Below, one piece after another: positions 2,441-49,529 of a stretch of DNA of 64,000 bases. Under the pieces are notes generated by a model. That model searched no databases and was not told the origin of the DNA. It saw only the letters and a list, made by a program, of their open reading frames with translations. Positions within the stretch are counted from its first letter, which is position 1. Every line of letters begins with the position of its first letter. Origin of the DNA: Methylocystis rosea SV97 (GTDB lineage: Bacteria; Pseudomonadota; Alphaproteobacteria; Rhizobiales; Beijerinckiaceae); assembly GCF_000372845.1 (NCBI RefSeq), contig NZ_KB889963.1:124001-188000 (forward strand). The letters run 5' to 3'. Position numbers and translations under genes: made by a program.

Positions 2441-3328
2441 TCAAGCGCTCTGCAATACCTTGGCGACAGTCGTTCCGAATTCCGCCGGGCTCGGCGCGAC
2501 CGTGAGCCCGTAAGACTTCATGATCTCGGTTTTTTCCGCAGCGCTGTCGCCCGTCGCCGAAATGATGGCGCCGGCATGGCCCATGCGGCGGCCCTTGGGC
2601 GCCGTGAGGCCGGCGACAAAGCCGATCACCGGCTTGGAGAAATTCTCCTTGATCCAGGCGGAGGCTTCGGCCTCCTGCGGACCGCCGATTTCGCCGATGA
2701 TGAGCACGGCCTGGGTCTCGGGATCTTTGTCGAACAGCACCAGATGGTCGAGGAACGACGAGCCGTTGATCGGATCGCCGCCGATGCCGACCGAGGTCGA
2801 TATGCCGAGGCCGAGCGCCTTCAACTGCGACGCCGCTTCATAGCCAAGCGTGCCGGAGCGCGAGATCAGCCCCACCGGACCCTGCTTGTAAATGTGGCCA
2901 GGCATGATGCCGAGCATCGCCTTGCCCGGCGAAATAATGCCGGCGCAGTTCGGGCCGACCAGCATCGGCCTGCGATCCTTCGGAAAGCGCAGGAAGTAGC
3001 GCTTCACGCGCATCATGTCCTGCGCCGGAATGCCGTCGGTGATCGAGCAGATCAGGCGGACGCCGGCGTCGGCGGCCTCCATGATCGCGTCGGCGCAAAA
3101 AGCCGGCGCGACGAAGGTGATCGACGCCTGCGCGCCGGTTTCGCGCACCGCGTCGCGGACGGTGTTGAACACCGGCACGCCGTGGTGAGTCTTACCGCCC
3201 TTTCCGGGCGTGACGCCGGCGACGACATTGCTGCCGTAGTCGATCATCTCCTTGGTGTGGAAACTGCCCTTGTCGCCAGTGATGCCCTGGACCAGGATCG
3301 GCGTCTTTTCGTCAATGAGAATGCTCAT
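2441..3328 (-). CDS. mtkB: Malate--CoA ligase (malate thiokinase) alpha subunit
   Basis: With MtkA it converts malate, CoA and ATP to malyl-CoA, which malyl-CoA lyase then splits into glyoxylate and acetyl-CoA in the serine cycle. The 295-residue protein has the SucD fold: an N-terminal CoA-binding domain and a C-terminal ligase domain with GHAGA near residue 250, whose His is the phosphorylated residue in this family. On sequence alone it could be succinyl-CoA synthetase alpha. Its position between ppc and mtkA, with fchA and mtdA close by, makes malate thiokinase the better call. The gap to mtkA is 17 nt, consistent with co-transcription. Confidence 0.93.
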   Translation of the reverse strand: MSILIDEKTPILVQGITGDKGSFHTKEMIDYGSNVVAGVTPGKGGKTHHGVPVFNTVRDAVRETGAQASITFVAPAFCADAIMEAADAGVRLICSITDGIPAQDMMRVKRYFLRFPKDRRPMLVGPNCAGIISPGKAMLGIMPGHIYKQGPVGLISRSGTLGYEAASQLKALGLGISTSVGIGGDPINGSSFLDHLVLFDKDPETQAVLIIGEIGGPQEAEASAWIKENFSKPVIGFVAGLTAPKGRRMGHAGAIISATGDSAAEKTEIMKSYGLTVAPSPAEFGTTVAKVLQSA

Positions 3329-22257: not shown

Positions 22258-22307
22258 TGGTGGGCGGCACAGGGATTGAACCTGTGACCCCTCCCGTGTG
22301 AAGGGAG
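22258..22307. repeat. Left attachment site: partial tRNA-Val 3' end
   Basis: Fifty bases identical to 49455-49504, covering CCA, acceptor 3' strand, T arm, variable loop and part of the anticodon arm of tRNA-Val on the minus strand. After base 22307 the match degrades and the D arm and 5' acceptor strand are missing, so this is not a functional tRNA. It marks the left end of the integrative element. Confidence 0.92.
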
Positions 22308-22470
22308 CGCCCTATCGTTGATGGCGGTTGTGGCGGGTGGATTTCAACCAAGAATGCACTGCTTTTCCATAATTCTGAATTGCGATGCTTGGATTTAGAT
22401 TGCTGGGATTTGCGGTCATGTGGTAGCTATCTGGTTGCTAATCGCTCTTAGCTACCATGGCTTTGCTTCC

Positions 22471-23742
22471 ATGCTGACCATTAAAACCATCGCGACGATC
22501 CCAATGGGCAAAACCCTTTGGGATGACGGCAAAGGCGCAGTTGCTGGCTTCGGCGCTCGGCGGCAAAGAGGCGACGCCGTCACCTATGTGCTCAAATACC
22601 GGACTCAGGACGGACGCCAGCGCTGGTTGACCATTGGGCGGCATGGTTCACCTTGGACGCCGGACCTCGCGCGCGCCGAGGCGCGGCGGCTTCTCGTCGA
22701 CGTGGCGAAGGGCGGCGATCCGGCGATGGAAAAGCGGCAAGGCCGTAAGGCCGCGACCGTCGCGCAACTCTGCGACGAATATCTTGCGGCAGCGAAGGCC
22801 GGACGCCTGCTCACGCGACGCGGCGTCATGAAGAAACCCGCCACTCTGGACGGTGACAGGGGCAGGATCGAGCGCCACATCAAGCCCTTGCTCGGCGATC
22901 TCAAGGTCGCTGCGGTTTCCCGCCAAGATATAGAGCACTTCAACAATCAAGTGAGTGAAGGCGCGACTGCAACGCGGATTAAGACCGGCAAGCACGGGCT
23001 CGCGATCGTGACGGGCGGACGCGGGACCGCGACTCGCGCCATGGGGTTGCTCGGCGCGATCTTTAATTACGCCGTCCGGCAAGGGCTCCGCCCGGACAAT
23101 CCAGCTGTAGGCGTCGCGCGCCATGCCTATGCGGAACGCCAGCGGCGCGCCTCGGATGCTGAATTCGCCGCACTCGGCGAGGCTCTTCGCACCATGCCGC
23201 CGACGACATGGCCGGCTGCGGTCGCCGCCGCGAAGTTTCTCGCGCTTACTGGCTGGCGGCGCGGCGAAGCGCTCGCGCTCCGATGGTCGGAAGTCGATTT
23301 GGTGACGCGGACGGGGCGGCTCCCGGACACAAAGACGGGCTTTTCACTGCGCCCACTCTCCCATGCGGCATGCGACGTGTTGCACGATCTCCCGCGCCTC
23401 GGCGCGCTTGTGTTTCCGGCTTCCGTGGGAATCGACAAGCATATGAGCGGATTCCGCAAGGTTTGGGTCCGCATTGCCGCGAAGGCTGGACTTTCTGACG
23501 ACGTGACGCCGCATGTGTTGCGGCACTCGTTTGCCTCGATCGCGGCGGACCTGGGATACAGCGAGCTGACGATTGCCGCGATAATCGGACACCGCAAGGC
23601 GACGATGACGAGCAAGTATGCCCATCATGCCGACGCGGTGCTGCTGGCAGCCGCGGATGCAGTTGCGAGCAAGATTTCCGAATTGATGGGAGACGCGCAG
23701 CCTGCGGGCGTCGTCGTCCCCCTCAGAGGAACGAGAGATTAA
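22471..23742 (+). CDS. Tyrosine recombinase (integrase)
   Basis: Site-specific recombinase that probably moves the element between attP and tRNA-Val. The N-terminal part resembles the P4-type arm-binding domain, a SAM-like core-binding domain follows, and the C-terminal catalytic domain shows Arg in TGWRRGEAL, HVLRHS, GHRK and the nucleophile Tyr in TSKYAHH. It sits 163 nt inside the left repeat and reads inward. The ATG at 22471 has no obvious ribosome-binding site; an upstream alternative start at 22420 would add 17 residues. Confidence 0.93.
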   Translation: MLTIKTIATIPMGKTLWDDGKGAVAGFGARRQRGDAVTYVLKYRTQDGRQRWLTIGRHGSPWTPDLARAEARRLLVDVAKGGDPAMEKRQGRKAATVAQLCDEYLAAAKAGRLLTRRGVMKKPATLDGDRGRIERHIKPLLGDLKVAAVSRQDIEHFNNQVSEGATATRIKTGKHGLAIVTGGRGTATRAMGLLGAIFNYAVRQGLRPDNPAVGVARHAYAERQRRASDAEFAALGEALRTMPPTTWPAAVAAAKFLALTGWRRGEALALRWSEVDLVTRTGRLPDTKTGFSLRPLSHAACDVLHDLPRLGALVFPASVGIDKHMSGFRKVWVRIAAKAGLSDDVTPHVLRHSFASIAADLGYSELTIAAIIGHRKATMTSKYAHHADAVLLAAADAVASKISELMGDAQPAGVVVPLRGTRD

Positions 23743-25074: not shown

Positions 25075-25316
25075 CCGCACGCCCCGCCCTCTCCATCCCC
25101 AGCGCCGGCGCACAGTGCCGTCAGCACATCGCCGAACTCGCCGGCGTCATCGGCGCCAGCGCCGAGATTATCGCTCGCTATGCAGAACTCGGCGACGATG
25201 TCGGGCTCGAATACCAACTGCGGCGATTGATCCTGCATGTTCGGGCCGCGACCCAGACGTTCAAAGACCTTGCCGAGTTTGAGAACGCGCGCCGCGCGGA
25301 AAGCGAGGCTGCGTGA
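25071..25316 (+). CDS. Small helical hypothetical protein
   Basis: An 81-residue, largely alpha-helical protein (residues about 15-75, with AELAGVIGASAEIIARYAELG and LRRLILHVRAATQTF). No family recognised. Both ends overlap neighbours by 4 nt (ATGA and GTGA), indicating translational coupling with the DUF3631 ATPase downstream. Confidence 0.6.
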   Translation: MTARPALSIPSAGAQCRQHIAELAGVIGASAEIIARYAELGDDVGLEYQLRRLILHVRAATQTFKDLAEFENARRAESEAA

Positions 25317-26875
25317 GCGATCAATCGCAACAGCGCTTGGCACCGCCGGAAACGTCCGATGGCTTCAATCCTGAAATCGCCCGTCTCGCGGCGCTTGATC
25401 CAATCGCTTATGACCGCGAGCGCCTCGCCGCGGCCGAGGAGCTAGGCTGTCGCGTCTCGACACTCGATAGCCTGGTCGCCAAAGCGCGCGCTGAAGCCGA
25501 CGAGCATAAGCAGGTCGACCTTTGCGCGGACGTTGATCCTTGCGCCGAGCCCATCGACGTGGGCGAACTGCTCGATGACATTGATGCAACGATCCGGCGC
25601 TTTATCATTTGCGACGACTCGACGAGGACGGCCGCAGTATTATGGATTGCGTTCACTTGGATCATCGAGCACGCCCAAGTCTCGCCGCTCGCCATTATCA
25701 CGGCGCCAGAAAAGGGATGCGGGAAGTCGCAGCTCTTGGACGTGGTCGGCCGCCTGTCCAAGCGCCCACTATTCGCGTCGAATATCTCGCCGGCCGCGAC
25801 ATTCCGCGTCATCGAAGCAAAGACGCCGACTTTGCTCATTGACGAGGCTGACGCCTTTTTCAAAGAGAACGAGGAATTGCGCGGCATTATCAACAGCGGC
25901 CACACTCGCACGTCGGCCTATGTCATCCGCACAGTAGGCGACGACTTCGAAGTCAAACAGTTTTCCACATGGGGCGCGAAGGCGATTGCCGGCATTGGGC
26001 GGTTGCCCGAAACCGTCATGTCGCGCGGGATTATCCTGGCGCTGCGTCGGAAGTTGAAAAGCGAAACAGTAGAGCGGCTGCGTCACGCCAAGCACGGCTT
26101 GTTCGATGCGCTCGCCGGGCGTCTGGCGCGCTTCGGACATGACTACGGAGCCGCTATCGCTCGCGCGAGGCCGCAACTGCCGGAAGCGTTAGGCGATCGC
26201 GAACAGGACAATTGGGAACATCTACTGGCCATCGCCGACCTGGCCGGAGGCTCGTGGCCGCAGGAAGTGCGGCGCGCCGCGCTGATGATGTGCTGCGCCA
26301 ATGATCGTGAAGACCTATCTCTCGGCGAGCAACTGCTTCACTCGATACGAGACGCGTTTGGCCAGGACGTGGCGGACAAGCTGTCGCGCGAAGAACTTCT
26401 ACGTCGTCTTGTCGCCGACGAGGAAGGACCATGGGCGACTTGGAACAAAGGCAAGCCAATGTCGGCGGCCCAGTTCCGGAAGCGTCTCGCCGCCTATGCG
26501 ATCAAGACAAAGAAGGTCCGTCTCGACACCTACACGACGGCGCAGGGATTCGAGCGCCGGCAATTCGAGGACGCTTGGAGTCGTTATCTTGATGGCGAGG
26601 ACCATGCTTCCACTGGGAGCACCCCTCAGAAACAGAACAATGGAACATCGCAGGAAACCGAGGCGTCTGGGCGTTCGGAGGCCGTTCCGGTTCCAGTTCG
26701 AGAATCGGAACATGCCGACTCCGCCGTCAATTCGTCGCCTGTTCCAAAATCAAAGTGGAACGGGAACGCGAACGGAACGGCGAAAAAGACGGAAAACTTG
26801 GATTGTTCCAATGTTCCAGTTCCGACCCCCACCTCTGGAGAAGACACGCCTCATGAAATCGAGGTGGAGCTGTGA
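25313..26875 (+). CDS. DUF3631 P-loop ATPase (replication primase/helicase-like)
   Basis: A 520-residue protein with Walker A APEKGCGKSQ at residues 131-140 and Walker B TLLIDEADAFF near 173-183, then the DUF3631 region that ends in LRRLVADEEGPW and a winged-helix-like tail. DUF3631 proteins are usually found in phages and integrated elements attached to primase modules, so a role in element replication is likely. The last ~90 residues are low-complexity (VPVPV, NGNANGTAKK). The start is GTG at 25313, overlapping the previous stop. Confidence 0.85.
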   Translation: MSDQSQQRLAPPETSDGFNPEIARLAALDPIAYDRERLAAAEELGCRVSTLDSLVAKARAEADEHKQVDLCADVDPCAEPIDVGELLDDIDATIRRFIICDDSTRTAAVLWIAFTWIIEHAQVSPLAIITAPEKGCGKSQLLDVVGRLSKRPLFASNISPAATFRVIEAKTPTLLIDEADAFFKENEELRGIINSGHTRTSAYVIRTVGDDFEVKQFSTWGAKAIAGIGRLPETVMSRGIILALRRKLKSETVERLRHAKHGLFDALAGRLARFGHDYGAAIARARPQLPEALGDREQDNWEHLLAIADLAGGSWPQEVRRAALMMCCANDREDLSLGEQLLHSIRDAFGQDVADKLSREELLRRLVADEEGPWATWNKGKPMSAAQFRKRLAAYAIKTKKVRLDTYTTAQGFERRQFEDAWSRYLDGEDHASTGSTPQKQNNGTSQETEASGRSEAVPVPVRESEHADSAVNSSPVPKSKWNGNANGTAKKTENLDCSNVPVPTPTSGEDTPHEIEVEL

Positions 26876-32574: not shown

Positions 32575-33057
32575 CTATCGAGCGAAATGGCGTTGCTCTT
32601 TGCGCCATTCCCAAGGCGCTTGAGTATGTCCTGCCCACATGCCGCGACGATTGTTCTTGGCCTCCTGCTCCGCACCGATGTAGTCCGACGAATAGCGGCG
32701 ATATGCGAAGGCCTGGCCGCTTCTGACCAACCAAAGCCCTACATCCTCGCCCCGGACCCGACAGGCAGCGACGGTCCGCCCATAGCGGTCAACATCCTTC
32801 TCTCCACACGACACGGGCGACTGTCCGATAAATTTGTCCAGAGCCATCGCAGCGTTCTGTCCGCAGCGGTAGGGTTGGTTCGCGGCGTCGAAACATGGCT
32901 GCCCCTTCTCAGGCGCATCAACCCCATGGAGGCGGATGCGCTGTCCCTGAATTTCGATTGTATCGCCGTCTATGACCGACGCTCGCCCCACGATGTCAGC
33001 CAAGCAGATGCCAGGGAACAATACGAAGGCTGTAATTATGAGCAGGCACGTCGTCAT
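32575..33057 (-). CDS. Secreted thermonuclease-family nuclease (SNase-like)
   Basis: A 160-residue protein with a signal peptide (MTTCLLIITAFVLFPGICLA) and one SNase domain: VIDGDTIEIQGQRIRLHGVDAPE with the catalytic Arg and Asp residues, then VDRYGRTVAAC and the C-terminal YIGAEQEAKNNRRGMWAG. Presumed Ca-dependent nuclease of the periplasm or outside. A decayed relative lies at 39184-39330 in the same element. Confidence 0.88.
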   Translation of the reverse strand: MTTCLLIITAFVLFPGICLADIVGRASVIDGDTIEIQGQRIRLHGVDAPEKGQPCFDAANQPYRCGQNAAMALDKFIGQSPVSCGEKDVDRYGRTVAACRVRGEDVGLWLVRSGQAFAYRRYSSDYIGAEQEAKNNRRGMWAGHTQAPWEWRKEQRHFAR

Positions 33058-36459: not shown

Positions 36460-36498
36460 GCGCCCCGACCGTGGATGTAACGGCGGGGCGTTTTTGCG
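36460..36498 (+). terminator. Terminator-like hairpin, family B copy 1
   Basis: CGCCCCG pairs with CGGGGCG around GTGGATGTAA, then TTTTTGCG. An almost identical element lies at 42921-42959. This one sits after the gene at 36227-36397. The 36398-36719 stretch holds no gene: only this and the next hairpin. Confidence 0.75.
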
Positions 36499-36594
36499 TC
36501 TCATGGAGTTGAATCTCATTGCCCCCGCACTAACTCTACGAGCTTCAGTGTCGGCGCGCACCGTGCCGGCACAACCCTCCCAGGGTTGCGCAGC

Positions 36595-37680: not shown

Positions 37681-37863
37681 TTAGCGGCGCTTCACGGCTT
37701 CTTTGATCAAATCTCGAAGCTGCTTCCTAAGCACCGGTCCCAGGACCTGGCGTCCGTTATAGCCTTCGCGATCAAGGCGTCTGATCAGATTGTCGATGGA
37801 ACCGCAATTTCCGGAGCGCGCCAGAACGAACGCGCGCTCGAGGGTGGTGATGCTTGTGCGCAT
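37681..37863 (-). CDS. Small paralogue A: DREGY family protein
   Basis: A 60-residue basic protein (TLERAFVLARSGNCGSIDNL, then RRLDREGYNGRQVLG). It is clearly homologous to the gene at 44985-45200 in the same element (TIERAFELARSGDC, LDREGYDRRQ). The pattern suggests a small helix-turn-helix fold. Function unknown; the conserved pair supports both being real genes. Confidence 0.65.
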   Translation of the reverse strand: MRTSITTLERAFVLARSGNCGSIDNLIRRLDREGYNGRQVLGPVLRKQLRDLIKEAVKRR

Positions 37864-37977: not shown

Positions 37978-38160
37978 TCACGTTGGCTTGCTGGCGCGCA
38001 ACTCGATCAGCAATTCAGCCATTCCCTTGGGCAGCGGCTCGGTTAGGACGTCGTCAAACTTGGATCGCAGAAGCTTGCCGATCGTTTCCAAGGCCTGGGA
38101 CTTAGCTTTCACGACAGAAGTGTCCAACTTCCGCCAATTGTCCGGCCGTTTGTGCGGCAT
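37978..38160 (-). CDS. NepR-like anti-sigma factor
   Basis: A 60-residue protein whose core IGKLLRSKFDDVLTEPLPKG, then MAELLIELR, matches the NepR helix pair (typical IGxxLRxxYDxVxxEPVPDRF-xxLL). NepR binds the general stress sigma factor EcfG until phosphorylated PhyR removes it. GAGGGAG precedes the ATG, and an EcfG-type promoter stands 25-49 nt upstream, giving the expected feedback loop. No phyR or ecfG is in the window, so it must act on chromosomal partners. HWE kinases follow within 4 kb. Confidence 0.75.
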   Translation of the reverse strand: MPHKRPDNWRKLDTSVVKAKSQALETIGKLLRSKFDDVLTEPLPKGMAELLIELRASKPT

Positions 38161-38184
38161 GGTAATACTCCCTCAAGGCAGCGA

Positions 38185-38209
38185 AACTCCTACCCATCCG
38201 GATTGTTCC
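38185..38209 (-). promoter_or_regulatory. EcfG-type promoter of the nepR-like gene
   Basis: On the minus strand GGAAC (38209-38205), a 17-nt spacer and GTT (38187-38185) match the general-stress sigma consensus. The start codon at 38160 lies 25 nt downstream. The spacing is the same as at csbD (21860-21884). Confidence 0.7.
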
Positions 38210-38366
38210 GGGAAGGGAAAATATAGAAAAAATAAAATGTTAGCAGTGACTGAAGTATAGGGTAGACCTCAGGGATGCGGAGCCCCAGCCTGTCGCGCGT
38301 CGCAGCTCCTTCAACTCGAACCTCGCCCCAGCGCGGGCACGCCCCGGCTCAATGCCCCCGTTGTTT

Positions 38367-39200
38367 TCAGTGACTAGACCGGGATGGAAATTCGACCTTG
38401 AGAGTTGTTCCCGTCGGACCGTTTAATCGCAGGGAGCCGCCGAGCTGGCGCGCAAACGTTTGCATGATGCTCATGCCCAACGACTGACGTTCGCCCGCCG
38501 AATCCCGCCTTATCCCTGGTCCGTCATCATGGATGAGCAAGCGCAAGCCGTCTGTCTGCTTGAGCAATTCGACCTTGAAGGTCGTCCCCGCTCCCTTCCG
38601 AAAAACGTGCTTCGCCGCGTTCATCGCAGCCTCATTGACGAGCAGGGAGATCGCAGTCATCTGGTCCAGCGAAAGTTCGATGCCAGGAGCGATTTCGACG
38701 CGGACAAGAACGGGCAGGTCTCGAAAAACTTCGTGGAGCACGTCCGTCATCAGTGGCGCCAAGCCGTTTTCGTAAGCTGTCCGATCATAGAGACGGCGAT
38801 GCAAATCCGACATCATTGCGATGCGGTCTTGGGCATTCGCGATTGCTTCAGCAGTGGCTTCGTCGGACAAATCGCGTCTGACACCCTGCAGCATGGCCAC
38901 AACTACCTGCAGGTTGTTGGCGACGCGGTGCTGCAGTTCTTGAAAGAGGCTCTCTTGAGCTCGGTTGGCGAATTCGAGCCGCTTGATGAGGTCCGTCATC
39001 CCAGCGACCAGCACGACGAGAAAACCGCCGACCAGAAGAAATCCAACGACCGCGACGACCGTACTCGCGTCCTTTATCTCAAAGCTATATGCCGCCGGGT
39101 AAAACAAGTACCAGGCCGCCGCCGCTGACAGCAGCAGAACGGCGACGCCTCGCGTCCATCGGCGCCGCCGTCGCAGTGCTTGAGTGCGAGGCGAGGACAT
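38367..39200 (-). CDS. Membrane HisKA_2-type histidine kinase
   Basis: A 277-residue kinase: two N-terminal membrane helices (residues about 16-35 and 45-68) with almost no periplasmic sensor, a linker, the phospho-His region ELQHRVANNLQVVVAML (HisKA_2), and an ATPase domain with N box NEAAMNAAKHVF and G box HDDGPGI. HisKA_2 and HWE kinases typically drive PhyR in the general stress response. It lies downstream of nothing on its strand and 207 nt from the NepR-like gene in the same direction. Confidence 0.88.
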   Translation of the reverse strand: MSSPRTQALRRRRRWTRGVAVLLLSAAAAWYLFYPAAYSFEIKDASTVVAVVGFLLVGGFLVVLVAGMTDLIKRLEFANRAQESLFQELQHRVANNLQVVVAMLQGVRRDLSDEATAEAIANAQDRIAMMSDLHRRLYDRTAYENGLAPLMTDVLHEVFRDLPVLVRVEIAPGIELSLDQMTAISLLVNEAAMNAAKHVFRKGAGTTFKVELLKQTDGLRLLIHDDGPGIRRDSAGERQSLGMSIMQTFARQLGGSLRLNGPTGTTLKVEFPSRSSH

Positions 39201-39330
39201 CGAGCTTTGGCTTGTGAGAAATGGTCACGCCATGGCGTATCCCGATATTCGAGCGCCTATATTGGCGCCGAGCAGGAGGCGAAGAACGCGAAGCGGGGAA
39301 TTTGGGCCGGTCAGGTCCAACCGCCGTGGA
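39184..39330 (+). pseudogene. Decayed SNase-like nuclease fragment
   Basis: Encodes VRGEDIELWLVRNGHAMAY and then, after a one-base deletion, RYSSAYIGAEQEAKNAKRG and IWAGQVQPPW. This aligns with the C-terminal third of the intact nuclease at 32575-33057. The 5' two-thirds are gone, cut off near the start of the divergent kinase gene. Confidence 0.75.
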
Positions 39331-39444
39331 TTGGCGAAAGGATCGCAAATATTGACCCCCAAACCGCCTCTCGCCCGCCGAGAAGCTCTCCAGTCAACAT
39401 TGACACAGGTTCAAATTATAGAAGATCATTTTGGCAGGGCCACG

Positions 39445-39612
39445 CGCAAGACCAGGAACGTATCGCTCACGCCCGAGCTGGAGCGTTCTATTGAGAAGGG
39501 GCCGCCTCGGCCGTTATTGAGGCGCGGCGAAGTTATTTGTGCCGCGTTGCGATTGTTAGAGAAAGAAGAAAAAAAATCTGGTCCCCAGAGCGAACACTCG
39601 CTTGGAAGTTGA
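39445..39612 (+). pseudogene. Degenerate ParD-type antitoxin remnant
   Basis: The frame reads TRNVSLTPELERSIEKG and, further on, EVICAALRLLEKEEKK, like ParD/CC2985 antitoxins (NVSLTPEL ... EVVRAALRLLE). The middle, normally ASGRYxNAS, is scrambled, consistent with small deletions. No ParE toxin is adjacent. It runs up to the next kinase gene. Confidence 0.5.
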
Positions 39613-39625
39613 TGAAAGGGCGGCC

Positions 39626-40684
39626 ATGGCAAATGAAGAAAACAAGTCCGGGGAGCAGAAGGTCGCTGAATCGGAAGTTGAGACCTTTCAGAGTGACCTG
39701 GGGCCATTCGTCGTCGCAGCCGAAACGACACGCATGCCTATGGTGTTTACAAATGCGAAAGAACCCGGCCATCGCATCATTTTCGCCAATGACAGCTTTC
39801 TCGCTTTGACCGGATATACCCGGAAAGAGGTACTCGGCGAGACGTTCAATTCTCTGATGGCGCCCGGGGCCGATCCAACTGCGCTGTCGCAAATCGAACT
39901 CGCCTTCGAGGGTAAGTTAGACACCGACCCGGAAATCAGCTACAGCCGCAAAGACGGCAGCGCATTCTGCGCCTCCATCTTCATCAGTCCTGTCCGAGAT
40001 AACAGCGGGGATGTCGTACAGCAATTCGCCTCCTTCGCGGACATTACCAAACATCATCGCGAGAAAGAGCGCCTCCGGCTTCTCCTGGAGGAGTTGAACC
40101 ACCGCACGCAAAATACGCTCGCGACCGTGCTGGCAATCGCCCGGCAGACCTTGCGGGGGATGGCCGACGAGGAGGTCGTTGATGCTCTCGAAGGGCGCAT
40201 CCTGGCGCTGTCAAAAACGCATAGCCTGTTGGGGCGCGAGAGCTGGGACAGGGTGAGCCTGTGCAAAATCCTGGATTTAGTATTTCAGCCGTTTGGTCTA
40301 CACGAAAGCCGGGTTTCCCGCTTTTCAGTCCAGGGCGAGGATGTTCGCCTGCAACCGAAATCAGCTTTGACTCTCACCATGGTATTCCATGAGCTGGCAA
40401 GCAATGCTGTAAAGCACGGTGCTCTCTCAAACGATGCCGGCAGAATCGACATTAGCTGGAAAGTCGAGCCTTCCCCGCAGGGAGACCAACTGCGTCTGCG
40501 TTGGCAAGAAAGCGGCGGGCCGCCAGTGACACCGCCGACACATAAGGGTTTCGGATCGCGCCTGATCCAAAGAGACTTGGCGCAGGACCTGGGTGGACAG
40601 GTCTACCTCGATTATGAGCCCACAGGTGTGGTTTGCGAGATCATCATGCCCATAAGCCGAGGGCCGGTCGACGAGCATGAATAA
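39626..40684 (+). CDS. PAS/LOV-like HWE histidine kinase lacking the photoactive cysteine
   Basis: A 352-residue soluble kinase. Residues about 30-140 form a PAS domain very close to LOV domains (IIFANDSFLALTGYTRKEVLG), but where LOV has GxNCRFLQ it reads GETFNSLM, so the flavin-reactive Cys is Phe; other flavin contacts (NYRKDG becomes SYSRKDG; ASQ becomes ASF) are changed too. Then comes the HWE phospho-His region LLEELNHRTQNTLA, N box HELASNAVKHGALS and the W-x-E motif RWQESGGPP. ATG 39626 follows AAAGGG. It overlaps the next gene by 8 nt. Confidence 0.88.
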   Translation: MANEENKSGEQKVAESEVETFQSDLGPFVVAAETTRMPMVFTNAKEPGHRIIFANDSFLALTGYTRKEVLGETFNSLMAPGADPTALSQIELAFEGKLDTDPEISYSRKDGSAFCASIFISPVRDNSGDVVQQFASFADITKHHREKERLRLLLEELNHRTQNTLATVLAIARQTLRGMADEEVVDALEGRILALSKTHSLLGRESWDRVSLCKILDLVFQPFGLHESRVSRFSVQGEDVRLQPKSALTLTMVFHELASNAVKHGALSNDAGRIDISWKVEPSPQGDQLRLRWQESGGPPVTPPTHKGFGSRLIQRDLAQDLGGQVYLDYEPTGVVCEIIMPISRGPVDEHE

Positions 40685-42050
40685 CGGACTCTCTGGCCGG
40701 CGCATTCTCGTTGTTGAAGACGAGGCGATCGTAGCTTGGACGCTCGTAGATATGCTTACAGGCTTAGGCTGTGCGGTCCTCGGCCCCGCCGCCGGCGTCG
40801 ATCAGGCCCTCGCGATGATCGACGTGGAAACTATCGACGCCGCTGTGCTCGACATAAATCTAAACGGGCAAAAATCTTACCCCATCGCGGACGCACTGTC
40901 AGCGCAGGGCGTGCCGTTCGTCTTTGCGACCGGCTATAACAATGACAGCCTGCAAAAGAACTATACTGCTGCTCCCCTGCTTCAAAAGCCCTTTGGGCGT
41001 TCGGCGTTAGCCGGGGCCCTCACGGAACTATTGACCCCGGGACTTCACCCGACATTAGAGAAGGCAACTAGCCCACCGGAGTGGGACGCCAATCGTCTCC
41101 GGATTGCCACCGAGGCAGCGGGTGTCGCGCTGTGGTCGTGGAATGTCGATACAGACCAGATTGCCCTAGACGAGCGCGCCCATGGCATGTGGGGGGTGCA
41201 CGAAGGGGTTGTCACCTTTGAGGATCTGTCATCACACATCCATCCCGAGGATCTCGACAGGGTGAGAGCCGCCTTCGCTTCGACGCGAGAAGTCCTAGGC
41301 CCTTACGAAATCGACTTCCGTATTCTGCATGGCGACAAGGTGCGTTGGATATCAGCACGCGGGAGAGGCGATGACGAGGGTATCGTCGGCCGAACAATGT
41401 TTGGAGTCTTCCTTGACGTGACGGGTCGGAAGCTGGCCGAGGAAGCCCGTGAGATGCTCTCGGGGGAGATGGTTCACCGGGTGAAGAACCTATTCGCTAT
41501 CGCGTCCGCGCTCACCGCAATATCGGCGCGTTCGACGAAAACCTCGAAAGAAATGTCGCTCGACCTGACCAAGCGATTAACGGCCCTAAGCCACGCGCAC
41601 GATCTTATCCGTCCCGTTCTGGGGGAGCCGAAGAAGGCCGCTCCTCTTGGCGAACTGCTCGCCGCACTTCTCGCGCCCTACGACGAGGAGGGAGGGATCG
41701 GAGTTCGTGTCCGCGTCTCCGTGCCCGAGTTGTTGGTGGGGGAGGCATCGGCCAATGCTTTTGCCCTCGTCGTCCACGAGTTGGCTACGAATTCTATCAA
41801 ATACGGTGCGCTCTCACAGGCAACCGGCACACTCGACGTGGCGGGCATAGCCGACGATAGCCAATTGATTATCACTTGGACCGAGAGGGGCGGTCCCGCC
41901 GTTGTTGCCCCTAAAGGACGCGCAGGTTTTGGGAGCCAGCTCGTCACCAAGACCATTTTCAGCCAGCTCGGCGGCACGATAGTTTTCGACTGGGACCAAG
42001 AGGGAGTTATCGCTACGCTGAGTATGAGCAAGGCCCGTCTTGGTGCATGA
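40677..42050 (+). CDS. Receiver-PAS-HWE histidine kinase
   Basis: A 457-residue protein with an N-terminal response-regulator receiver domain (ILVVEDEAIVAW; phospho-acceptor Asp in AAVLDINLNG; Lys in LLQKPFG), a PAS domain (about residues 140-255), and an HWE kinase with MVHRVKNLFAIASAL, N box HELATNSIKYGALS and W-x-E in TWTERGGPA. It overlaps the preceding kinase by 8 nt, so the two form one unit; the first kinase may phosphorylate this receiver, but that is inference. Confidence 0.9.
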   Translation: MNNGLSGRRILVVEDEAIVAWTLVDMLTGLGCAVLGPAAGVDQALAMIDVETIDAAVLDINLNGQKSYPIADALSAQGVPFVFATGYNNDSLQKNYTAAPLLQKPFGRSALAGALTELLTPGLHPTLEKATSPPEWDANRLRIATEAAGVALWSWNVDTDQIALDERAHGMWGVHEGVVTFEDLSSHIHPEDLDRVRAAFASTREVLGPYEIDFRILHGDKVRWISARGRGDDEGIVGRTMFGVFLDVTGRKLAEEAREMLSGEMVHRVKNLFAIASALTAISARSTKTSKEMSLDLTKRLTALSHAHDLIRPVLGEPKKAAPLGELLAALLAPYDEEGGIGVRVRVSVPELLVGEASANAFALVVHELATNSIKYGALSQATGTLDVAGIADDSQLIITWTERGGPAVVAPKGRAGFGSQLVTKTIFSQLGGTIVFDWDQEGVIATLSMSKARLGA

Positions 42051-42959: not shown

Positions 42960-43085
42960 TTCGCGCTCGCGCTTAATCTCACTGAGATAGGCGTAAATTG
43001 ATGTGTATGTCACAACGACGAGCCGCTTGCGATGAGCGGTCGTCGTCCCCAAAAAACTTGTAGCATCCCTACGAGGATAAGTCTG

Positions 43086-43454
43086 ATGTCAAATGCAGAG
43101 ACAACGAAAGATCTCGTTGGTCAATCGATCGGAGAGATCAAGCGGGGAATCGACACGCTGGCCGATTCGACGAAAGCGCCGCTTGAGGCCGAAAGCCTTG
43201 AAGTTCAGCAGAATATCCAGCACGCAATTGACCAAGTGAAGGACGCTGTGTCGGTTGCCCTCGATTGTCTTACTCAGTGCAGATCAGTGGACCAATTGCG
43301 AGGCTACGCAAATGAGGCAATGGGCAAGACGAAGCTGGCCGTAGCTCTCTCTACGCGCTCTCCGGAGCTTGCTGTGGCCGGAATCGTGCAGCAAGCCATA
43401 GGCGATTTGCAGAAGTTTATAGGCGAAGCAAAAAACGCCGATGAAAAAGAATAG
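43086..43454 (+). CDS. Helical phasin-like hypothetical protein
   Basis: A 122-residue, almost entirely alpha-helical acidic protein (IGEIKRGIDTLADSTKAPLE, QHAIDQVKDAVSVAL). It recalls phasins or other amphipathic helical surface proteins in pattern but lacks a clear family signature. GAGGA lies 8 nt before the ATG. It lies in the stress-gene part of the element. Confidence 0.6.
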   Translation: MSNAETTKDLVGQSIGEIKRGIDTLADSTKAPLEAESLEVQQNIQHAIDQVKDAVSVALDCLTQCRSVDQLRGYANEAMGKTKLAVALSTRSPELAVAGIVQQAIGDLQKFIGEAKNADEKE

Positions 43455-43924: not shown

Positions 43925-44305
43925 TTATTGCTGCCCGCCGATTTCTTGCCAATAAGGCCGAGCGCTATAATGCTGATGCACGCGCGTCTCCCACTCACGA
44001 TCCATCCAGCTTTCGTCGGTGTAGTCTGGCGCGCTCTCGACCAAGTCCTGGGTGACATCCGCGAAGTATCCACGACAGTCTCTGTCGTATTTCAGCGATG
44101 TCCAAGGCAATGGATGATGGCCGGGATGCAGGCACATGCCGCCGCAAAATTCGACGACCGCGTAAAGAACGCGGCCCGATTCCATATCAATCATGAAATG
44201 GTCGATCTTGCCGATTTCCTTGCCGCTCTTGTCGTAAACGGCCGCGCCATCGATGTGCTGGCTCGATATCAGGTTGATTTTCGGATTTGAGGCTGCAGTC
44301 GCCAT
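43925..44305 (-). CDS. PRC-barrel domain protein
   Basis: A 126-residue cytoplasmic protein with a PRC-barrel domain: LISSQHIDGAAVYDKSGKEI, GKIDHFMIDMESGRV, LYAVVEFCGG and PLPWTSLKYD. Such proteins are small beta-barrels linked to RNA processing, photosynthetic reaction centres or stress. It sits divergent to the universal stress protein, sharing a 156-nt spacer. Confidence 0.88.
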   Translation of the reverse strand: MATAASNPKINLISSQHIDGAAVYDKSGKEIGKIDHFMIDMESGRVLYAVVEFCGGMCLHPGHHPLPWTSLKYDRDCRGYFADVTQDLVESAPDYTDESWMDREWETRVHQHYSARPYWQEIGGQQ

Positions 44306-44461: not shown

Positions 44462-44887
44462 ATGCTCAAAAAGATTCTTGTCGCGATCGATCTCACTGAA
44501 TCTGAGATGACCAAGCAGGCGATCGACAAAGCAGCGGCGCTCGCCAGGGCTTTCAATAGCGAACTCAGGCTGGTCAATGTGCAGACCCTTATTCCCGTCG
44601 CCTTCCTCGACTACGTCAAGGGAAATTTCGACAAGGATATTCAGCAAGGCCTCGAGAAGGAGATCGCCGCCTTAGCGGCTAGCATCGCTCATCCGACCGG
44701 CCGAATCTCGACCGTTGTGCTGTTCGGTCCCGTCTATCAAAAGGTTCTGGCGGAGGCCGAGGAGTGGGGCGCAGAAGTCGTCGTCGTAGGCTCCCACCGG
44801 CCAGGAATGGATCGGTTTCTCATTGGCTCGAACGCCGGCGCCATCGTATACCACGCAAAATGCTCAGTGCTCGTCGTGCGGCAGTAG
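44462..44887 (+). CDS. Universal stress protein (UspA family)
   Basis: A 141-residue single-domain Usp: ILVAIDLTESE at the N-terminus and the nucleotide-binding motif VVGSHRPGMDRFLIGSNAG near residues 108-126, the G-x2-G-x9-GS pattern of ATP-binding members. AGGGAGG precedes the ATG. It is part of the element's stress cargo. Confidence 0.92.
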   Translation: MLKKILVAIDLTESEMTKQAIDKAAALARAFNSELRLVNVQTLIPVAFLDYVKGNFDKDIQQGLEKEIAALAASIAHPTGRISTVVLFGPVYQKVLAEAEEWGAEVVVVGSHRPGMDRFLIGSNAGAIVYHAKCSVLVVRQ

Positions 44888-44984: not shown

Positions 44985-45200
44985 ATGGATGCCGACAAGA
45001 CAACAATTGAGCGAGCGTTCGAACTTGCTCGCTCCGGAGACTGCAGAAGGGTCAGCGATATCGTCGCACGCCTTGACCGTGAAGGATACGACAGGCGTCA
45101 GATCCAAGGTTCCGTCCTAAAGAAGCAGCTTGCGCGCCTGATCGAAGAGGCGCGGAAAGCTGACGACGGGCGAGGCTCGAAGCCAGCGGATGAACCATAA
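44985..45200 (+). CDS. Small paralogue B: DREGY family protein
   Basis: A 71-residue protein (TIERAFELARSGDCRRVSDI, RLDREGYDRRQIQG) homologous along its length to the gene at 37681-37863, with an added acidic C-terminal tail. Function unknown. Confidence 0.65.
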   Translation: MDADKTTIERAFELARSGDCRRVSDIVARLDREGYDRRQIQGSVLKKQLARLIEEARKADDGRGSKPADEP

Positions 45201-47344: not shown

Positions 47345-47914
47345 CTATGCCGCCAGGCTATGAACATGCACGTCGTGGCCTCCATTGTTCTGCATGGCAG
47401 ACATGGCGGCGCGTTCGTGTTCTTCGGTCCGGGTTCGCACCCACAGCAACAGACCGCCGCGCGCTAATTGCGCCTGCACCCAATTGCGCTGACGACGTCG
47501 AATGAATGCGCCGACGCCCAGGCCAATCACGCTGGCGGCCATGCCAGCGCCAATGCCCGCAAAGATCGCCTCGGCGAAACTGCCGTAGATGGTCCAAACG
47601 GCGATCGCGCCAGCAGTGGCGCCGACATAGAAGAGCAGGCCGATGAGCGCAGCTTTGCCTTCATTAAGCGACTCGGTTTCGATGTAGGAAATGCGAGGAG
47701 CTTCATCGCTGTCCTCGATTTCGACCGAGCGTTTCGACCCAACCTTTTCGCGCGTCTTCGCGTCTTCGGTGAGGAGGCTGATTTCGGATCTGTCGAATCC
47801 GTGAGTCATCAAATCGTCAATGGCAGACTGCAGTTTATCAACCGAGTCGAACAGGCCTACGACTTCGGTAAATTCGCGGTGCTGTTCGAGCGCAGCCGTT
47901 TCATTCGATTCCAT
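47345..47914 (-). CDS. General-stress-type membrane protein with glycine zipper
   Basis: A 189-residue protein. The N-terminal EVVGLFDSVDKLQSAIDDLM then THGFDRSEISLL resembles the YflT/general stress domain, and a glycine-rich membrane hairpin follows (GATAGAIAVW, GIGAGMAASVIGLGVG), then a basic cytoplasmic tail. It probably acts in the inner membrane under stress. GGAGG lies 7 nt before the ATG. Confidence 0.75.
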   Translation of the reverse strand: MESNETAALEQHREFTEVVGLFDSVDKLQSAIDDLMTHGFDRSEISLLTEDAKTREKVGSKRSVEIEDSDEAPRISYIETESLNEGKAALIGLLFYVGATAGAIAVWTIYGSFAEAIFAGIGAGMAASVIGLGVGAFIRRRQRNWVQAQLARGGLLLWVRTRTEEHERAAMSAMQNNGGHDVHVHSLAA

Positions 47915-48317: not shown

Positions 48318-49220
48318 ATGAGGTTTACAAAGCCGGCCCTATCGATTGAGGACCAGCTCAACCTCTTGCGGCGCCGTGGCCTGCGAATCGAGGATGAGGC
48401 GAGAGCGAAGCATTTCCTGCAGCACATCACCTACTACCGGTTACGAGCCTATTGGCTGCCCTTTGAGCAACCCTGTTCCGTTCCGGGCGATCACAGTTTC
48501 AAAGAGGGAGCGACATTTGAAGACGTGCTGTCCCTGTACGTTTTTGATCGCCAACTGAGATTACTCGTTATGGACGCGATCGAACGGATTGAGGTCTCCT
48601 TGCGGGGCCGTTGGGCGCATCACTTGGCTATGAACTACGGGCCGCATGGCTATCTCGAGCCGGTCCACTACACCCGGCCGGATCACTATGCGAAGGCGAT
48701 GACCAGCCTTATTGAGGAAATCGAGCGGTCCCGCGATACCTTCATCGAGCATTATCGCCGGAAATATCGCGACCCTGAGCTGCCGCCAATCTGGATGACG
48801 TCGGAGGTAATCTCATTGGGTCAGCTCTCGAAGTGGCTGGGCAACTTGAAGCTTCGTGTCGACCGACAGGCAATTGCAAAGTCCTACGGTCTGGACGAGC
48901 GAGTGCTTGTCTCGCTGGCGCACCATCTGACATACGTCCGAAATATCTGCGCGCATCATGGTCGACTGTGGAACAAGCAGTTTACAGTGACTATGGCCCT
49001 CCCCAATTCGCCGGGAGCACTGAAGCTCGCCATGAACCCCCAGGCGGCGCGAAAGCTCTATAACACCCTTGCGACTCTTGGCTATTTACTGGGGATCATC
49101 GCTCCCTCTTCCGGCTGGCGAAAGCATCTCATCGATTTGCTGGACGCCCATCCGCTTGTGGATCCCGCGGCAATGGGATTTCCGAGTGATTGGCGTAACC
49201 GACCAGCCTGGAGATCATAA
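48318..49220 (+). CDS. AbiD/AbiF-type abortive-infection protein (Abi_2, HEPN)
   Basis: A 300-residue Abi_2 protein: RFTKPALSIEDQLNLLRRRG at the start, YYRLRAYWLPF, LYVFDRQLRLLVMDAIERIE and the HEPN R-x-x-x-AH motif in YVRNICAHHGRLWN. Such proteins stop phage growth by aborting infected cells; HEPN members are often RNases. It stands alone at the right end of the element, 235 nt from the tRNA, typical of defence cargo. Confidence 0.9.
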   Translation: MRFTKPALSIEDQLNLLRRRGLRIEDEARAKHFLQHITYYRLRAYWLPFEQPCSVPGDHSFKEGATFEDVLSLYVFDRQLRLLVMDAIERIEVSLRGRWAHHLAMNYGPHGYLEPVHYTRPDHYAKAMTSLIEEIERSRDTFIEHYRRKYRDPELPPIWMTSEVISLGQLSKWLGNLKLRVDRQAIAKSYGLDERVLVSLAHHLTYVRNICAHHGRLWNKQFTVTMALPNSPGALKLAMNPQAARKLYNTLATLGYLLGIIAPSSGWRKHLIDLLDAHPLVDPAAMGFPSDWRNRPAWRS

Positions 49221-49454: not shown

Positions 49455-49529
49455 TGGTGGGCGGCACAGGGATTGAACCTGTGACCCCTCCCGTGTGAAG
49501 GGAGTGCTCTCCCGCTGAGCTAGCCGCCC
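49455..49529 (-). tRNA. tRNA-Val (anticodon CAC)
   Basis: A 75-nt cloverleaf on the minus strand: acceptor GGGCGGC/GCCGCCC, D arm, anticodon stem CTCCC/GGGAG with loop TTCACAC (anticodon CAC), T arm GGTTCAATCC and encoded CCA. It decodes GUG. It is the integration target; its 3' 50 bases are repeated at 22258-22307. Confidence 0.95.

Follow-up and report, generated by a model that had tools for sequence, protein, structure and literature searches.

A NepR-like gene and three HWE/HisKA_2 kinases on an integrated element of Methylocystis rosea SV97: a possible branch of the host general stress response

The 64-kb stretch of DNA analysed here (the window) covers positions 124001–188000 of a 3.55-Mb contig of Methylocystis rosea SV97; a second contig of this genome measures 365 kb. 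In it lies a 27.2-kb element, integrated in a tRNA-Val gene, that carries a gene for a 60-amino acid NepR-like protein behind its own EcfG-type promoter, a small gene that we call b60 and three HWE/HisKA_2 kinases (K1, K2 and K3; Table 1). These features incline us to see in the element a branch of the general stress response (GSR) that lacks the core of that system. We consider it somewhat more probable than not that the NepR-like protein is an EcfG-induced antagonist of PhyR, exerting negative feedback, and that the kinases add inputs to the host relay. A mobile element with a NepR-like gene and kinases may in this way tune the stress reaction of its host. Extra copies of GSR regulators are common in alphaproteobacteria, with roles that are largely elusive (PMC4814048). 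A set of such regulators on a removable element, with relatives in which the site is empty, raises directly the question of whether mobile DNA tunes the host GSR. An earlier note on this DNA knew of no described element of this form and, judging from listings, we found none in the open-access literature searched.

Judged by its sequence, the 60-residue protein is a NepR homologue, as the note had proposed, and it scores far better than random. A hidden Markov model (HMM) built from the cores of five other NepRs encoded in this genome gave it 34.0 bits, as against 10.7 for the best shuffle (2000 shuffles made, 1592 scored) and 5.8 for the next-best segment of an open reading frame (ORF) in the window (n = 1235 segments). 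A profile was also made from six sequences, the window protein together with five of its paralogues or relatives, with no cassette NepR among them. Its best match among solved structures was the NepR chain 3t0y_B (E = 9.8e-5), followed by 2lfw_B (0.016). The list at E ≤ 10 has six chains: these two, two weaker NepR chains (5uxx, 0.63; 4qic, 0.96) and two unrelated ones (0.75 and 1.7). Run against genomes, the profile recovers nepR of the host cassette at C1:590285 (E = 7e-5); at E ≤ 1e-4 it finds matches in 27 of 39 genomes from the genus, and many of these matches are remoter NepRs. The protein begins MPxxxPDxWR and keeps the NepR core IG..LR..FD.V..EP.P; its predicted model has two helices (pLDDT, the predicted local distance difference test score, 76), with no match in the PDB at E ≤ 10.

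The promoter claimed for this gene also stood up. The site (GGAACAATCCGGATGGGTAGGAGTT, 38209–38185 on the minus strand) starts 49 nucleotides (nt) and ends 24 nt before the start codon. Sites of the form GGAAC-N16/17-NGTT occur four times in the 64 kb, both strands included, and two fall in the element, where simulated sequence leads one to expect 1.3; the motif alone is therefore weak, and it is position and conservation that carry weight. Among the ORFs of 26 NepR-like loci (L numbers below denote loci), GGAAC-N15-18-NGTT lies at −49 to −52 in 20 of the 21 NepR-like genes with an MP start; L088 has TGAAC, and one of the 20, that of L099, is divided between two ORFs. Close kinship among many of the genes means that they do not count as 20 independent cases, though their spacers have diverged. 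Ten further NepR-like genes fall outside this count: sites were seen at −46, −53 (L101, L096) and −72 (L100), and seven genes have none within 120 nt. When six upstream regions are aligned, the promoter stands at the same distance in each, with an A/T-rich stretch in front. Twenty gene starts were tested for EcfG-type sites: the NepR-like gene has a good one, b60 a weak GGAAT and the other 18 none. These starts lend no support to the idea that EcfG governs all the stress cargo, nor to the suggestion in the note that the host response is altered for the element's benefit.

What such a protein might do is best judged from its closest studied analogues. NepR2 of Sphingomonas melonis Fr1 is a small EcfG-controlled NepR paralogue that binds PhyR, EcfG binding not being shown in the part of the paper available; exchange of L31 or F35 for alanine lowered its activity, and exchange of R32 did not (PMC6599016). 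Residues L31, R32 and F35 of the window protein bear the same numbers, read off the sequence rather than from an alignment with NepR2. META2p0735 of Methylobacterium extorquens, like the window gene a NepR paralogue, has an EcfG-dependent promoter, co-precipitates PhyR and was not seen, in the accessible text, to bind EcfG (PMC4814048). Overexpression of either lowers stress resistance (PMC4814048, PMC6599016). There are differences too: by gene number, NepR2 (1448) adjoins ecfG (1447) and phyR (1445), with no mobile element mentioned in the part of the paper at hand (PMC6599016), whereas the window protein has its MPxxxPDxWR start and b60 behind it. Because NepR2 and META2p0735 bind PhyR and L31 and F35 are present in the window protein too, we prefer feedback through a PhyR antagonist. 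On phosphorylation of host PhyR, the freed EcfG would, to go by the promoter, transcribe the nepR-like gene of the element. The product would bind PhyR via the two-helix NepR core, in which L31 and F35 are kept, and by competing with host NepR would lead to recapture of EcfG, a negative feedback of the kind suggested by homology to NepR2 and META2p0735. K2 is the probable phosphoryl donor of the FATGUY receiver that K3 now carries and, as their family suggests, K1–K3 may exchange phosphoryl groups with host PhyR or with a hub of the SdrG/MrrA type.

As the note had read them, the three are HWE/HisKA_2 kinases, one of them fused to a receiver; the receiver is N-terminal in K3, and HRxxN is present in all three. 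K2 and K3 match the HWE_HK model and have both HRxxN and WxE; K1 is above the HisKA_2 cut-off and also passes that of HWE_HK (25.5 versus 22.8), with no WxE match. Three of the 11 HWE_HK matches in the genome lie in the element. The best NCBIfam model for K1 is Caulobacter PhyK (NF051872; 4.2e-24, 85 bits) but, unlike PhyK, K1 is far under the 750-bit cut-off and only its kinase core is matched. The LOV cysteine motif was not found in K2. The best NCBIfam receiver match of the K3 receiver is a PhyR-family model (9.7e-13, far under its cut-off). A FATGUY motif, PFXFATG(G/Y), has been described for MrrA of Caulobacter and SdrG of Sphingomonas (PMC5964349), which the element resembles in its receiver motif and its HRxxN kinases; MrrA and SdrG are single-domain proteins, however, whilst the K3 receiver is fused before a second HWE kinase (PMC5964349, PMC5898713). 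Since SdrG or MrrA is a substrate of HWE/HisKA_2 kinases, as PhyR is in vitro for those of S. melonis (PMC5964349, PMC5898713), K1–K3 plausibly feed the host relay, although a role as phosphatases is just as conceivable.

From its sequence, K3 looks like a fusion between the receiver of a K2-type operon and a receiver-less kinase. At 13 of 19 loci examined, the K2-type kinase is directly followed by a receiver 41–52% identical to that of K3; 11 of the 13 are separate ORFs and two sit at the end of longer ORFs. In a sample of 397 genomes, 23 from other genera have a kinase 52–68% identical to the kinase part of K3 (E < 1e-100). That K3 is an ordinary hybrid kinase was rejected: in none of these 23 relatives was an in-frame receiver found (tblastn at E ≤ 1e-5, over the 5–106 residues before the homology), and one had, close by on the opposite strand, a stretch that resembles a receiver. 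A scan of named genomes with K3 gave three remote relatives and no more. As K3 comes directly after K2, its start codon overlapping the K2 stop codon, the simplest history would be a K2–receiver operon in which the receiver became fused to a second kinase. Such a fusion offers a testable view of rewiring in promiscuous relays.

The kinases might instead be a self-contained phosphorelay (from K2 through the K3 receiver to K3) that has nothing to do with the GSR, with the NepR-like gene as an independent passenger; we regard this as a possibility to be taken seriously but as the less probable course. In its favour, K3 is alone in the 39 genomes of the genus at E ≤ 1e-60, and K2 has its nearest relatives (48–56% identical) in other families, in four of 297 genomes sampled from the order; this sample holds one other genome of the genus, which gave no match at 1e-50. 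No adjoining kinase was found at 22 of the 26 NepR-like loci, some of them on short contigs (in L046 a kinase lies ~9 kb away), whereas NepR-like genes pair with b60 at seven places, and the kinases are without EcfG-type sites. Where they have been studied, on the other hand, HWE/HisKA_2 kinases and FATGUY receivers feed PhyR (PMC5964349, PMC5898713), and there is a second setting in which NepR-like genes of this clade have a kinase beside them: an HRxxN kinase stands next to the NepR-like gene in the window and, convergently, in two relatives (L088 and L091), with a counterpart at L052 in the host's own genome. Kinase neighbours were found by motif pattern, the shortened L052 kinase being seen on reading.

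The note called the 60-residue protein an anti-sigma factor, of which the NepR homology holds good; direct sequestration of a host EcfG, as by canonical NepR, is unlikely to be its main mode of action. The NepR core is kept, and both NepR proteins of Sinorhizobium meliloti are stated to bind the sigma factor as well as both PhyRs (PMC4814048). Yet the two closest studied EcfG-controlled paralogues bind PhyR and, in the accessible parts of the papers, were not seen to bind EcfG (PMC4814048, PMC6599016), and the window gene sits apart from phyR. Canonical nepR adjoins phyR and ecfG; the window has no PhyR_sigma2 match, all eight matches in the genome (E ≤ 1) lying elsewhere, and both phyR cassettes of the host are outside it. 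The absence of phyR reported in the note is thus borne out, whilst for ecfG no separate search for extracytoplasmic function (ECF) sigma factors was made. It is likewise improbable that neutral drift left one of the many NepR paralogues of the genus in the element with little effect, through low expression or affinity: paralogue numbers vary, the second-contig copy has a broken frame and one relative's copy (L099) is split, but dN is well below dS in all three comparisons with the window gene (closest paralogue, C1:1175797, 68% identical, 0.19 and 0.50; two relatives, 0.18–0.19 and 0.52–0.53; dN/dS 0.34–0.39) and the promoter is conserved.

Several observations nevertheless weigh against the PhyR-antagonist reading. 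The NepR-like protein scores under the gathering cut-off of Pfam NepR (PF18557; E = 9.5e-4, 19.2 bits, cut-off 25.7) and under that of the NCBIfam NepR model (0.0025), and AbfS_sensor does slightly better than Pfam NepR (7.9e-4, 19.7 bits), also under its own cut-off of 26, so that Pfam alone cannot settle the identity. NepR paralogues are ordinary in the genus, which weakens the interpretation given in the note: 38 of the 39 genomes have matches at E ≤ 0.01, with 0–9 per genome, as does one of 14 control genomes, and the host genome itself has nine PF18557 matches at E ≤ 10, five of them above the cut-off. For one pair of relatives, L052/L091, dN (0.054) exceeds dS (0.045), on 9 changes. The promoter has AGTT as its −10 box, versus GGAAC-N16-CGTT near the host cassette nepR genes, and no EcfG-type site was found upstream of K1, K2 or K3. 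Strict FATGUY is present in five of the 13 receivers behind K2-type kinases, the closest having the near form PFVFSTGY. The NepR-like proteins with kinase neighbours all begin MPH (four of 26 loci, three with a near-identical kinase), which confines such neighbours to this clade and two settings, and the combination of element and kinases was seen once. The PAS-HisKA_2 kinase next to the closest paralogue (L052, 9706–10491) has 261 residues against 365 in two relatives. Not every HRxxN kinase acts on PhyR. Finally, pairing of NepR-like genes with b60 has more independent cases than pairing with kinases.

Outside the genus, relatives of the window NepR-like gene appear few and weak: 14 of 199 genomes in a family sample match at E ≤ 1e-3, three being its own or of the same genus, and two of 397 in an order sample at E ≤ 1e-9, its own included. 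Searches of plasmids, phages, viral contigs and named genomes with the NepR-like protein gave no match, nor did a search of plasmids with a second member, although queries this short can miss members: the M. parvus plasmid gene was found solely via b60. At six loci of relatives (L084, L087, L089, L093, L099 and L101) a second, different NepR-like ORF lies in opposite orientation within ~2 kb of the first. At another NepR-like gene of the same genome (L051, 9421–10692 and 11058–11222) a second integrase gene is <400 nt away, perhaps marking a second mobile copy.

The b60 gene follows the NepR-like gene immediately, and its product has no match in Pfam (E ≤ 1), NCBIfam (E ≤ 0.1) or PHROG (E ≤ 0.01); the best structure match of its predicted model (pLDDT 82) has E = 3.9. 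The family (60–70 residues) has 21 matches in 10 of the 39 genomes, and an intact NepR-like gene of one of two types (MP- or MTPQ-start) lies directly upstream at seven distinct places. In the remaining rows, L176 shares the NepR-like gene of L159, L157 has a broken one, L169 and L173 have no b60 ORF according to a local model, and the rest have no NepR-like gene there. Over the 26 NepR-like loci, b60 stands beside five (one with a broken gene) and a kinase beside four, neither being constant. M. parvus pMpar-1 carries the NepR-like/b60 pair, and a repeated pair points to an unstudied partner. A fuller scheme, which we put forward tentatively and think rather doubtful, would have the element read the host GSR via EcfG, limit it by a PhyR antagonist and add a fused-receiver relay, setting the timing and strength of the response, with the NepR-like protein and b60, its partner, as a small portable control unit. 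At L046 on the second contig of the host, intact b60 follows a NepR-like gene (3064–3201) whose frame is broken near a G run, by decay or sequencing error. Two stretches of Sphingomonas plasmids have a b60-like gene, and in them a local model found no NepR-like gene. On a plasmid of Sphingomonas paeninsulae (L154), integrase and phage capsid genes lie within 5 kb of a b60-like gene.

That all this belongs to an integrated element, as the note had it, is well founded. A copy of the 3′ end of the tRNA-Val gene marks one end and the tRNA gene itself the other, the integrase gene starts 99 nt inward of the attL copy, beside one element end, and in six of 20 loci (L105, L106, L107, L108, L111 and L112) the left flank runs into the tRNA gene, which implies that the 27.2 kb were inserted. 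The 20 are the loci of the genus fetched with the right flank, that of the window included; three hold other DNA, and most of the others do not decide (contig ends, divergence or no tRNA part). The three (L104, L109 and L110) have other DNA at the same tRNA-Val site next to a closely similar right flank, and the site may be an integration hot spot. In having a GSR regulator paralogue on accessory DNA the element resembles Rhizobium etli, whose EcfG2 is plasmid-borne, with the difference that EcfG2 is a sigma factor on a plasmid and the window gene a NepR-like gene in an element (PMC3892343).

Table 1. Coordinates (window numbering) of the element's ends, regulators and other genes.
Feature	Position	Strand	Basis
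attL, partial copy of tRNA-Val 3′ end	22258..22321	.	64 nt, 92% identical; first 50 nt identical to copy at 49455
Tyrosine integrase with arm-type DNA-binding domain	22420..23742	+	Pfam 3.8e-21; PHROG integrase 7.2e-58
DUF3631 protein	25313..26875	+	Pfam 5.9e-47
b60, 60 residues, no named domain	37681..37863	-	Immediately downstream of NepR-like gene; recurrent pairing
NepR-like protein, 60 residues	37978..38160	-	Profile homology, shuffle controls, dN/dS
EcfG-type promoter, GGAAC-N16-AGTT	38185..38209	-	Motif and conservation
Conserved A/T-rich stretch upstream of −35 box (GCTAAC..TTTATTTTTT..), candidate UP element or other site	38218..38246	-	Six-region alignment
K1, HisKA_2 kinase, hydrophobic N-terminal segments	38367..39200	-	HRxxN at residue 91
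K2, PAS-HWE kinase	39602..40684	+	HRxxN at 167; LOV-kinase-like
K3, receiver-PAS-HWE kinase	40677..42050	+	HRxxN at 267; start overlaps K2 stop
K3 receiver	40677..41042	+	PFVFATGY (FATGUY) at residue 80; resembles receivers after K2-type kinases elsewhere
CsbD-like protein	43032..43454	+	26.9 bits, below Pfam cut-off 40
PRC-barrel protein	43925..44305	-	Pfam 3.2e-9, above cut-off
Universal stress protein (USP)	44462..44887	+	Pfam 1.1e-28, above cut-off
Second b60-family protein	44985..45200	+	54% identical; sequence comparison
YflT-like protein	47345..47914	-	22.9 bits, below Pfam cut-off 26.2
Abi_2 abortive-infection-like protein	48318..49220	+	Pfam 1e-58
tRNA-Val(CAC), insertion site (attR)	49455..49529	-	tRNA gene call

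The left half of the element holds the DUF3631 protein and weak phage-like matches, whilst the regulators, the cargo with a stress theme and the Abi_2 gene lie in the right half. A check for capsid, portal and large terminase genes among those of the ORFs that were scanned gave weak small-terminase-like and virion-protein-like matches alone. The stress theme that the note saw in the neighbouring genes survives in part, with USP and PRC-barrel passing the Pfam cut-offs and the YflT-like (and CsbD-like) protein failing to do so. Parts of the cargo region recur on contig C2, where the longer matches have 81–88% nucleotide identity, and on a relative's contig of 18.8 kb, with 94%; copies of the YflT-like gene are 92% identical on a relative's contig and 79% on the second contig of the host. 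The Abi_2-type gene at the right end is a possible anti-phage gene. An SNase gene lies at 32575–33057 on the minus strand, and the stretch 39184–39350, just upstream of K1, resembles by eye the end of an SNase gene. GC-rich, terminator-like repeats with T-runs occur in the right half of the element at 36593, 43686 and 47005 and at 36470, 42554 and 42931.

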